In this document: one piece after another, positions 8,911-12,037 of the stretch
Layout of the letters: each line of letters begins with the position of its first letter
Numbering within the stretch: the stretch's first letter is position 1
NCBI GenBank assembly: GCA_027618475.1
Contig: JAQCEJ010000052.1
Span: 1-36,381, forward strand
Length of the DNA: 36,381 bases
Source of the DNA: Planctomycetota bacterium
Lineage (GTDB): Bacteria; Planctomycetota; Planctomycetia; Planctomycetales; Planctomycetaceae
Direction of reading: 5' to 3'
Notes under the pieces: generated by a model
What the model was told of the DNA's origin: nothing
The model's input: only the letters and a program-made list of their open reading frames with translations
The model's database searches: none
Translations under genes and position numbers: made by a program

Positions 8911-9702
8911 ATGCCACCACACTACCCACAGAACAGCAACAGCAGCGACCCGGAATCGGGAGCGCTCGATGTCTATTTTCTGGGGTGTGTCGATTTCGAA
9001 GCGACTGAATTGTTGCAGCAGAAGTTCACCGAGGAGATCGAATTCCGCCGCGATTTGCATGGAAAATTGTTGATTTGCGAGCATCCGCCATTGATCAGTG
9101 TGGGGCGCGAGGGGAGTCATGCCGATTTGCGGTACTCTGATGTCTGGTTGACGGAAAATCACGAGGATCGAATCGTCCGTCCGTCGCTGGAGGTACGTTG
9201 GGTGAAACGCGGGGGTGGGGCTCTCGTTCATGCACCGGGGCAACTGGCGATTTATCCAGTGATCCCGTACACGCGGCAGGGCTTTAACGTTGTTGAGTAT
9301 CGCGATCGACTGATGCGAGCTGTCACGCGGGCCTGCGAAGAATCACGAATTGCCGTAGAGTGTCGGAAAGCCGATCTGGGGTTGTTCACCCGCCACGGAC
9401 AGGTTGGGTTCGTCGGCCTCTCGTGTCGTGATGGCATCATCAGCCGTGGGATGTACCTCAACGTCGCCGCTCCGCTCGAACTGCTGCGGCAAGCCCACTG
9501 GTCGATGGAGAACGACAGTGTCGAAAGCGGTCGCTGTACCGAACCGGCTAATCTTGTGCAGTCGCGGCGGGTCTCGATCTCAGCGATCCGCGAGCGAGTG
9601 TTGTATCACGTGCAGAACGAATTCGGTTACGAACGCTCTCATCTCTATACATCGCATCCGCTGCTCAGGCGGGTGAGCAGGAAAGTTTATGAATACGCTT
9701 GA
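8911..9702 (+). CDS. lipB: LipB-like octanoyltransferase homologue with altered catalytic residues
   Basis: 263 residues of the LipB/LplA/BirA fold. Canonical LipB moves octanoyl groups from acyl carrier protein to lipoyl domains. The signature KRGGGALVHAPGQLAIYP (99-116, with R100-G-G and H107-x-PGQ) is clear. The next conserved block aligns without gaps to E. coli LipB: GLFTRHGQVGFVGL here against the NGRKIxxLGL region, which puts Gln164 at the catalytic Lys (K135), Arg179 at the usual His of FHGLALN, and Ser198 at the catalytic Cys (C169). The only late Cys, C209, is 11 residues further on. So the usual Lys/Cys pair seems absent. The gene ends 14 bases inside lipA, which argues for coupled expression and a lipoate-related role. 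It could be a non-canonical enzyme, a regulator or a binding protein. Homology is certain; activity is doubtful. Confidence 0.85.
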   Translation: MPPHYPQNSNSSDPESGALDVYFLGCVDFEATELLQQKFTEEIEFRRDLHGKLLICEHPPLISVGREGSHADLRYSDVWLTENHEDRIVRPSLEVRWVKRGGGALVHAPGQLAIYPVIPYTRQGFNVVEYRDRLMRAVTRACEESRIAVECRKADLGLFTRHGQVGFVGLSCRDGIISRGMYLNVAAPLELLRQAHWSMENDSVESGRCTEPANLVQSRRVSISAIRERVLYHVQNEFGYERSHLYTSHPLLRRVSRKVYEYA

Positions 9703-10612
9703 AATTCTTGGAAATGCTCCGACACAACCGCCACGAAGACGACTGCCGCCGTGGTTGAAGCGACCAATGCCGGAGCCGGACATGATGTTCACCGGAAAGG
9801 TGATCGAAGATTTAAGGTTGGAGACGGTTTGCGAGAGTGCGAAATGTCCCAATCGGACAGAATGCTGGTCGCAAAAAACAGCGACTTTCATGATTCTCGG
9901 AAACGTTTGCACGCGACCGTGCGGATTTTGTTCGGTTCCCAAAGGAAAGACCGAAACTCTCGAACTGGATGAACCCGAGCGTGTTGCCGAAGCGGCCGAA
10001 CGATTGGGACTGCGTTACGTCGTGATTACTTCGGTGACGCGCGATGATCTTTCCGATGGCGGCGCCGATCATTTTGCGAATTGCATTGCCGCCGTCCGTA
10101 ATCGGACTGGCGCACAGGTGGAAGTTCTAACGCCGGATTTTCTAGGTGACCGCGCTGCGATACAGACCGTTATCGACGCTCGGCCTGATGTTTTTAATCA
10201 CAACATGGAAACGGTACCCCGTTTGTATCATCGTGTTCGTCGAAATGCCGAATACCAGAGATCTCTTGATCTGCTGCGGATGATCAAAGAACAGGCCCCC
10301 GACATGCCGACCAAAAGCGGATTGATGCTCGGACTTGGCGAAACGGTCGACGAATTAATGTCGGTCTGTGCCGATCTGAGAGCCGTCGGCTGTGAGATGA
10401 TCACACTCGGACAATATCTGCAACCTTCACCGATTCATCTCCCCGTTGAGCGATACGTTCCACCTGAAGAATTCGATGAGATCGGCCGAATGGTGCGCAT
10501 GCTCGGCTTTGGCATGGTTGCCAGCGGTCCGTTCGTGAGATCGAGTTACCACGCCGGTGAAATGGCGGATGAGTTGGCCGGAGCCGGTCCCGAGCATATT
10601 GATGTGGGATAA
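9689..10612 (+). CDS. lipA: Lipoyl synthase LipA
   Basis: 307 residues. A radical-SAM enzyme that inserts two sulfurs into a protein-bound octanoyl chain to make lipoyl groups for 2-oxoacid dehydrogenases and glycine cleavage H protein. The auxiliary 4Fe-4S cluster ligands are C48, C53 and C59 in CESAKCPNRTEC; the radical-SAM cluster ligands are C74, C78 and C81 in CTRPCGFC. The C-terminal RSSY (284-287) supplies the serine ligand of the auxiliary cluster. Length is typical and no key residue is missing. It overlaps the LipB-like gene by 14 bases, with AGGAAAG about 4-10 bases before its ATG. An 88-base gap separates it from the small lipoyl-domain gene. Confidence 0.98.
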   Translation: MNTLEILGNAPTQPPRRRLPPWLKRPMPEPDMMFTGKVIEDLRLETVCESAKCPNRTECWSQKTATFMILGNVCTRPCGFCSVPKGKTETLELDEPERVAEAAERLGLRYVVITSVTRDDLSDGGADHFANCIAAVRNRTGAQVEVLTPDFLGDRAAIQTVIDARPDVFNHNMETVPRLYHRVRRNAEYQRSLDLLRMIKEQAPDMPTKSGLMLGLGETVDELMSVCADLRAVGCEMITLGQYLQPSPIHLPVERYVPPEEFDEIGRMVRMLGFGMVASGPFVRSSYHAGEMADELAGAGPEHIDVG

Positions 10613-10700: not shown

Positions 10701-10979
10701 ATGTCAACCGAGTTAATCCCCGTTGTCGTGCCGCCGATCGATCATCAGGACGAACCGATGATGCTTTGTAACTGGCTGATCGACAGGGGTGAACGTGTCG
10801 AATCGGGTGAAAGTATTTTGGAAATTTCGATACCGGGTATCGTGTGGGACGTTCCTGCCCCCTCTTCAGGACGACTGGAACGAATCGTGCGCGTCGTTTT
10901 CGATCGATTACGTCCTGGCGACATCTGTGGATGGATTCGGCTCGATGGTGATCACGTTACTGTGGAGAACGCGTCATGA
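10701..10979 (+). CDS. Stand-alone lipoyl/biotinyl-type domain protein lacking the modified lysine
   Basis: 92 residues that cover a single lipoyl-type barrel: IPVVVPPID at the start, CNWLIDRGERVESGESILEI around 23-42, the turn, then DVPAPSSGRLERIVR (50-64) and RPGDICGWIRL (71-81). In lipoyl domains the hairpin turn carries Asp-Lys before the EVPAP stretch; here the aligned residues are Pro45-Gly46, so there is no lysine for lipoylation or biotinylation. The fold is inferred from this pattern. I chose the ATG at 10701 because upstream in-frame sequence does not look like part of the domain and overlaps lipA; the ribosome site (AAGG immediately before) is poor. It ends in an ATGA overlap with holB, so the two are translationally coupled. 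Confidence 0.72.
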   Translation: MSTELIPVVVPPIDHQDEPMMLCNWLIDRGERVESGESILEISIPGIVWDVPAPSSGRLERIVRVVFDRLRPGDICGWIRLDGDHVTVENAS

Positions 10980-12037
10980 AATGGTCGGATGTCATCGGCC
11001 ATCAAATTCAGATCGAAATGCTGCACGAGGCGGTACGGCGACAGCGGTTGCCGCATGCGTTGTTGTTCGCCGGCCCGTCAGGAATCGGCAAGCAGATCGT
11101 CGCTCGACTTTTGGCAAAGGCGTTATTATGCGTGCAGAATTCGGAAACCGATTTGCAGGCCTGTGAAACGTGTGGCAGTTGCCGCAGTTTCGACGCGGGA
11201 ACTCATCCCGATTGTCTCACTGTGTCAAAGCCAGAGGGGAAAGCGATCCTTCCGATTGCACTTATCGCCGGCGAGGGAGACGAACGGGGGCGATCGGGGC
11301 TTTGTTATGACTTATCGCTACGGCCGATGTTGAGCAGACGAAAAATTGCGATCGTCGACGACGCCGATTGCATGAATGCCGAAGCCGCCAATGCGTTTCT
11401 CAAAACACTGGAGGAGCCGACGCCCGATACCGTGATCATTATGATCTCATCGCAACCCGACGCGTTGCTGCCGACCATTCGTTCGCGATGTCAAATGTTG
11501 CGATTTCGTCCGCTTAAGAGCAGCGAAATCGCCGAGCTGGTCATCCGCCTGGAATGGGTAGACGATCGGCAGGTTGCCGAAGAAATCGCGGCACTCAGCG
11601 ACGGGAGTCTCAGTCAGGCCGCGCAACTGCTTGATCCACGTTGGCGTGAATTGCGCACCATGTTGTGGACAGGGCTCTCCGCCGAGAAACTCGAAACCGG
11701 CCGATTTGCCGCCGAATTGCTCGAACAGATGGAATCGAAAGCGTCAGATGCCGGTGAGCGACGGAATGCCTGGAGCTGGTTGCTCCGCTTTGCTGTCGAA
11801 TTTTACCGAAACGAGCTGACCGAACTCACCCGTGAGTTATCGGATTTCGCACCAACCGATAACACTCCGAACGGCGTTTCCAACTGCTGGGACAGGCTGG
11901 AACGCACGAATCAGCTTCTCGATCGCTGCCTCGAAGAAGAATCCCGCCGTGACGATAATCTGAACGTCTCTTTAAGCCTCGAAGCCTGGTTGACCGATTT
12001 GGCTCAACTTCGACGAAAAGAATCAGCCGTTCGCTGA
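10976..12037 (+). CDS. holB: DNA polymerase III delta-prime subunit
   Basis: 353 residues, a clamp-loader AAA+ subunit that helps load the sliding clamp on DNA. Starts in a 4-base ATGA overlap with the lipoyl-domain gene. Seen in order: MKWSDVIGHQ at the N-terminus, HALLFAGPSGIGKQ (27-40; P-loop-like, with Gln in place of the Ser/Thr after Lys, compatible with the non-hydrolysing role of delta-prime), a zinc site with C52, C63, C66 and C69 (CETCGSC), IAIVDDADCMNAEAANAFLKTLEEP (Walker B region), and TIRSRCQ (sensor/SRC motif). The C-terminal third is helical, as in the collar domain. Position before ricT matches the holB-ricT order known in Firmicutes. Confidence 0.94.
   Translation: MKWSDVIGHQIQIEMLHEAVRRQRLPHALLFAGPSGIGKQIVARLLAKALLCVQNSETDLQACETCGSCRSFDAGTHPDCLTVSKPEGKAILPIALIAGEGDERGRSGLCYDLSLRPMLSRRKIAIVDDADCMNAEAANAFLKTLEEPTPDTVIIMISSQPDALLPTIRSRCQMLRFRPLKSSEIAELVIRLEWVDDRQVAEEIAALSDGSLSQAAQLLDPRWRELRTMLWTGLSAEKLETGRFAAELLEQMESKASDAGERRNAWSWLLRFAVEFYRNELTELTRELSDFAPTDNTPNGVSNCWDRLERTNQLLDRCLEEESRRDDNLNVSLSLEAWLTDLAQLRRKESAVR

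Follow-up and report, generated by a model that had tools for sequence, protein, structure and literature searches.

A lysine-less lipoyl-fold protein and its dyad-less LipB-like neighbour in Planctomycetia, a possible non-covalent pair near LipA

Why is a lipoyl domain without its attachment site encoded between the genes for lipoyl synthase and a DNA polymerase subunit? We examined this question in the window, a stretch of 36,381 nucleotides of planctomycete DNA, and in 59 related genomes. The original prediction, made from the letters of the window alone, was that a 92-residue barrel with Pro-Gly in place of Asp-Lys at the hairpin turn might bind LipA or the LipB-like protein, or act as a structural decoy. 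The genes and sites that matter for the answer are the following.

8911-9702, forward strand: LipB-fold protein without the Lys-Cys dyad; passes PF21948, below the NCBIfam LipB cut-off
9400-9402, forward strand: Gln164 of the LipB-like protein, aligned with the catalytic Lys135 of E. coli LipB
9481-9510, forward strand: residues 191-200 of the LipB-like protein (LLRQAHWSME), which lack Cys and align with PCGY around the catalytic Cys169 in E. coli LipB
9689-10612, forward strand: lipA (lipoyl synthase); motifs CX4CX5C, CX3CX2C and RSSY all intact; above the TIGR00510 cut-off and the sole true LipA of the genome
10701-10979, forward strand: the free-standing lipoyl-fold protein (LPL), 92 aa, no lysine; from translation, Pfam, AlphaFold2 and Foldseek
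10833-10838, forward strand: codons of Pro45-Gly46 (ccg-ggt), the hairpin turn that is the Asp-Lys site of lipoylated domains
10976-12037, forward strand: holB, DNA polymerase III delta prime (PF13177); its start overlaps the LPL stop (ATGA, 10976-10979)

A lipoyl barrel without lysine

LPL passes the Pfam model PF00364 (Biotin_lipoyl) with 24.9 bits against a cut-off of 22.1. Its AlphaFold2 model, computed with 42 orthologues, is a lipoyl barrel (mean pLDDT 92.1, pTM 0.79) in which residues 45-46 form a tight hairpin between strands E38-44 and E47-52, and comparison of this model with solved structures by Foldseek gave lipoyl and biotinyl domains as the best PDB matches. A functional carrier of lipoyl or biotin has its modified lysine at this turn; LPL has Pro45-Gly46 there, and the whole protein contains no lysine. 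The predicted barrel with Pro-Gly instead of Asp-Lys was thus confirmed by profile, model, structural matches and turn codons, as was the position of the gene between lipA and holB. The loss of carrier function in LPL is well supported.

With the E2 lipoyl domains of 2-oxoacid dehydrogenases (PF00364), LPL has in common the fold, the register and the motifs VPAP-x-SG and GD-x-V-x-x-GD, but it is free-standing and lacks the Asp-Lys attachment turn. We rejected the possibility of an E2 fragment, as LPL is a stand-alone ORF of 92 aa that matches N-terminal stretches of E2 models only. The lipoate carriers GcvH and LbpA are also stand-alone lipoyl folds, but these keep the lysine and have extra helices, whereas LPL has no Pfam match to GCV_H (PF01597) and was rejected as a GcvH on both profile and length. 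Normal lysine-bearing lipoyl acceptors are present in the genome of the window, where the GcvH proteins are encoded elsewhere. Two GcvH-type proteins (L071 and L072, on C67 and C81 of G000) carry their lysine in ESVKAVSD or EGFKAVSD, the second of them being divergent.

An HMM profile search found LPL in 45 of the 59 relatives, as a gene separate from those of the E2 proteins. Lysine at the turn is absent from all 53 class members, including the window, and from all 12 loci in named records that a contig scan with an LPL alignment yielded (Gimesia, Schlesneria, Blastopirellula marina DSM 3645, Pan216). In its place the class has PG, GE, GP, SG, VG and similar pairs. Pro11, Trp25, Glu41 and Gly57 are invariant across the class, the reading frames are intact, and dN/dS of 0.21-0.30, calculated for close pairs with unsaturated dS, indicates purifying selection. 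Given this selection, the conserved gene order and the presence of LPL in most relatives, the gene is more than a chance ORF. No relatives of LPL were found among viral contigs.

A LipB-like neighbour without the catalytic dyad

Catalysis by LipB depends on a dyad of Cys169 and Lys135, numbered as in E. coli (PMC9307952). The LipB-like protein of the window is modelled with the fold of LipB (pLDDT 83; best solved matches 2qhs and 1w66) and retains the RGG and PGQ pocket motifs of that octanoyltransferase, but it has Gln at the Lys site, has no Cys at the Cys site, and reaches only 45.4 bits with the TIGR00214 equivalog, for which the cut-off is 83.55. An intact dyad was found in none of the Planctomycetia LipB-like proteins that were read. 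At the Lys135 position Gln is the commonest residue and predominates in the family of the window, with Leu, Arg, Met, Pro or Ile in other families, and no conserved nucleophile replaces Cys169. One protein (in G012) has Lys at the site and no Cys, and the alignment of a Cys close to the Cys169 site in family f3 is ambiguous. The Planctomycetia proteins that are annotated as LipB, some of which exceed the threshold of the curated model, are likely not octanoyltransferases, and reconstructions of the lipoate pathway in this class therefore need revision. The dyad-less LipB of L048 (6619-7362) scores 95.5 bits against the TIGR00214 cut-off of 83.55; as a protein without the dyad can exceed this threshold, public annotation probably calls such proteins active LipB.

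Besides the LipB-like protein, the genomes of most relatives encode one or two further PF21948 ligases in which the Lys motif is intact; by motif some of these resemble LplA and others LipM. The occurrence of LipB and LipM in one genome has been described as very rare (PMC10332631), and this rarity agrees with a LipB that has ceased to act as an octanoyltransferase. Almost all relatives have an LplA or LipM, but in the assembly of the window's own genome (G000) no second ligase of either kind was found; this assembly is fragmented (218 contigs) and may simply lack the gene. Either such a gap or an octanoyltransferase other than those recognised here would account for it, and the observation counts against the explanation favoured below.

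Paired losses and the ancestral lysine

The original prediction called for a check of whether orthologues in other planctomycetes also lack the lysine. Within the class of the window all of them do, but in other classes the orthologues that occupy this locus carry it. A search of the phylum identified, in other classes of Planctomycetota, proteins of about 80 aa whose turn reads TDK or TEK, and several of their loci (L110, L114, L115, L119) have the gene order lipB-lipA-LPL-tmk-holB-PSP1. These proteins agree with LPL in length, locus, gene order and sequence family, and differ from it in retaining Asp38 and the TDK or TEK turn, in genomes that keep a catalytic LipB. Since they occupy the same lipA-LPL-(tmk)-holB locus, the lysine was ancestral. 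Orthologues with Lys at this position had been named as evidence against the original interpretation; in context, they show a derived loss rather than a misread domain. Overall, that interpretation is supported in part: the lysine-less barrel, the absence of the lysine throughout the class and a functional tie to the LipB-like neighbour are borne out, but neither the degeneracy of the LipB-like protein nor the lysine-bearing orthologues outside the class had been foreseen.

The LPL tree, based on a small number of columns and poorly resolved in its other parts, supports the class as a clade (SH-aLRT 99) and requires exactly two losses of the lysine, the first at the root of the class to which the window belongs and the second in family f79, which lies within f48; this result was stable after removal of the three trait columns. 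Position 38 switched along with the lysine, being Asp in 84% of the lysine-bearing and Arg in 85% of the lysine-less proteins. The state of LipB follows the same division. Where LPL bears its lysine, LipB has the complete dyad: 20 LipB proteins from such genomes were read, and each has both Lys and Cys. In the two f79 genomes, where the lysine of LPL was lost independently, LipB is absent and only LplA-like ligases are present; the persistence of LPL without LipB in this family counts against the pair reading.

Families f48 and f79 are probably anammox bacteria, as suggested by hydrazine-synthase-alpha-like ORFs of 809-844 aa in their members, G106 of f48 being without one. A different genome (G200) that does not look like an anammox bacterium has 36 matches to PF18582, the domain of hydrazine synthase alpha, which probably reflect a related repeat-type domain. 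The lysine-bearing LPLs of f48 (L117, 8152-8487; L118, 8017-8388) have poly-Glu/Asp C-terminal tails of up to about 45 residues.

LPL and the LipB-like protein are also lost together. Among the 59 relatives, 45 have both proteins, six have the LipB-like protein only, none has LPL only, and eight have neither, so that all eight genomes without the LipB-like protein also lack LPL (Fisher test, 1.4e-6); absences from draft genomes may be assembly gaps, although several of these genomes are more than 95% complete and G045 and G053 are on single contigs. On the LipA tree, where seven of these genomes were placed, the absences of LipB require seven separate changes, with LipA kept. In G053, lipA-tmk-holB is retained while lipB and LPL are both gone, which is not explained by one deletion because lipA, which would sit between the two, is kept. 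Six genomes have the LipB-like protein without LPL; this protein therefore does not need LPL, and the dependence runs one way, which is a point against the pair reading. On the basis of the paired loss of catalytic residues and the repeated co-loss, the association of LPL with LipB is well supported.

Possible roles of the pair

The explanation that we favour, with moderate confidence, is that LPL, a retired lipoyl carrier, has been kept near LipA to pair non-covalently with an octanoyltransferase that has itself been retired, the binding and any regulation being putative. On this reading, LPL descends from a free-standing lipoyl domain whose turn read TDK, in a lipB-lipA-LPL-(tmk)-holB locus, and the active LipB of that locus presumably octanoylated it. 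At the root of Planctomycetia, the lysine of the domain and both dyad residues of the neighbouring LipB were lost; the LplA-like or LipM-like ligases that most of these genomes encode can provide the transfer of octanoyl or lipoyl groups. The two remnants may then have persisted as a dependent pair, in which LPL would most likely dock on its LipB-fold partner as a substrate-like, unmodifiable surface, and together they would have a scaffolding or regulatory, non-catalytic role close to LipA. A comparable case is plant BADC, which lacks the biotinylation motif and helps to assemble acetyl-CoA carboxylase (PMC11926652). Like LPL, BADC is a homologue of a cofactor-carrier fold that has lost the attachment motif, and it has been kept as a non-catalytic partner; it is, however, a biotinyl-type protein of the plastid, and we regard it as a functional precedent for LPL, the putative partner, rather than as a shown relative. 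A stronger version, in which a pseudoenzyme and a pseudosubstrate form a frozen non-catalytic complex that controls or scaffolds LipA-dependent lipoylation in Planctomycetia, is conceivable but somewhat doubtful. The locus offers a natural case of an enzyme and its probable substrate domain that have both lost their reactive residues although an entire bacterial class has retained the two together, and it makes the pseudoenzyme and pseudosubstrate idea testable in lipoylation. Within the literature library that was searched, no planctomycete-specific or pseudo-lipoyl protein of this kind is described.

The gene order allows for a different role, in which LPL was repurposed outside lipoate metabolism, as a partner of HolB or Tmk or as a small-ligand-binding barrel, and its proximity to lipA is historical only. 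In the window the stop codon of LPL runs into the start of holB, LPL is next to tmk-holB in several families, including two where lipA has moved (f2 and f48), and it is apart from lipB-lipA in f2 and f5. The genomic link between LPL and LipA is therefore not universal, and the families in which LPL has remained next to tmk and holB leave room for a role with their products. The overlap behind the translational coupling to holB that was originally predicted is present in the window, but such coupling is not a feature of the family, since an overlap of the ATGA type was observed at only 17 of 79 LPL stops. Moreover, LPL in f5 is beside neither lipA nor holB, LPL is lost with LipB and not with replication genes (G053 has tmk-holB without it), and its lysine state tracks the catalytic state of LipB. 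We consider this repurposing unlikely.

A decaying relic, with other ligases having taken over and the two proteins eroding lineage by lineage with no present function, would agree with the absence of LPL from 14 and of the LipB-like protein from eight of the 59 relatives, with the fall of LPL identity to about 30%, and with an evolution rate about ten times that of LipA. Purifying selection makes a simple relic less likely, as dN/dS is low both for LPL and for the LipB-like protein (0.02-0.14), and the intact frames, the invariant residues, the concerted switch from Asp to Arg at residue 38 and the retention of LPL in most genomes speak in the same direction, so that decay seems rather improbable.

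We also judge it quite improbable that the LipB-like protein is still an acyltransferase through other residues, such as the conserved Gln at the Lys135 site or another group, with LPL as its activator or allosteric subunit. The preserved fold and pocket motifs, the replacement of Lys mostly by a single residue within the window's family, and the missing LplA or LipM in the window's assembly would be consistent with such activity. Against it are the variety of residues at the Lys site in other families, the lack of a conserved nucleophile in place of Cys169 and the intact additional ligase in nearly all relatives, while the missing ligase may itself be a gap among the 218 contigs. Modification of LPL at another lysine or nucleophile is highly improbable, for although many orthologues have one to four lysines elsewhere, the window's LPL (for which this was rejected outright) and 22 other members have none at all, and the alignment contains no conserved Cys, Ser or Tyr near the turn.

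LipA, near which the favoured non-covalent pair would act, has its cluster-binding and RSSY motifs intact at each of the 23 loci that were checked. A second LipA as the reason for a specialised pair was rejected, as 58 of the 59 genomes have a single true LipA and the remaining one has none. A divergent second radical-SAM protein, LipA-like, is encoded close to lipA in one genome (L258; G032, C64, 6175-6675).
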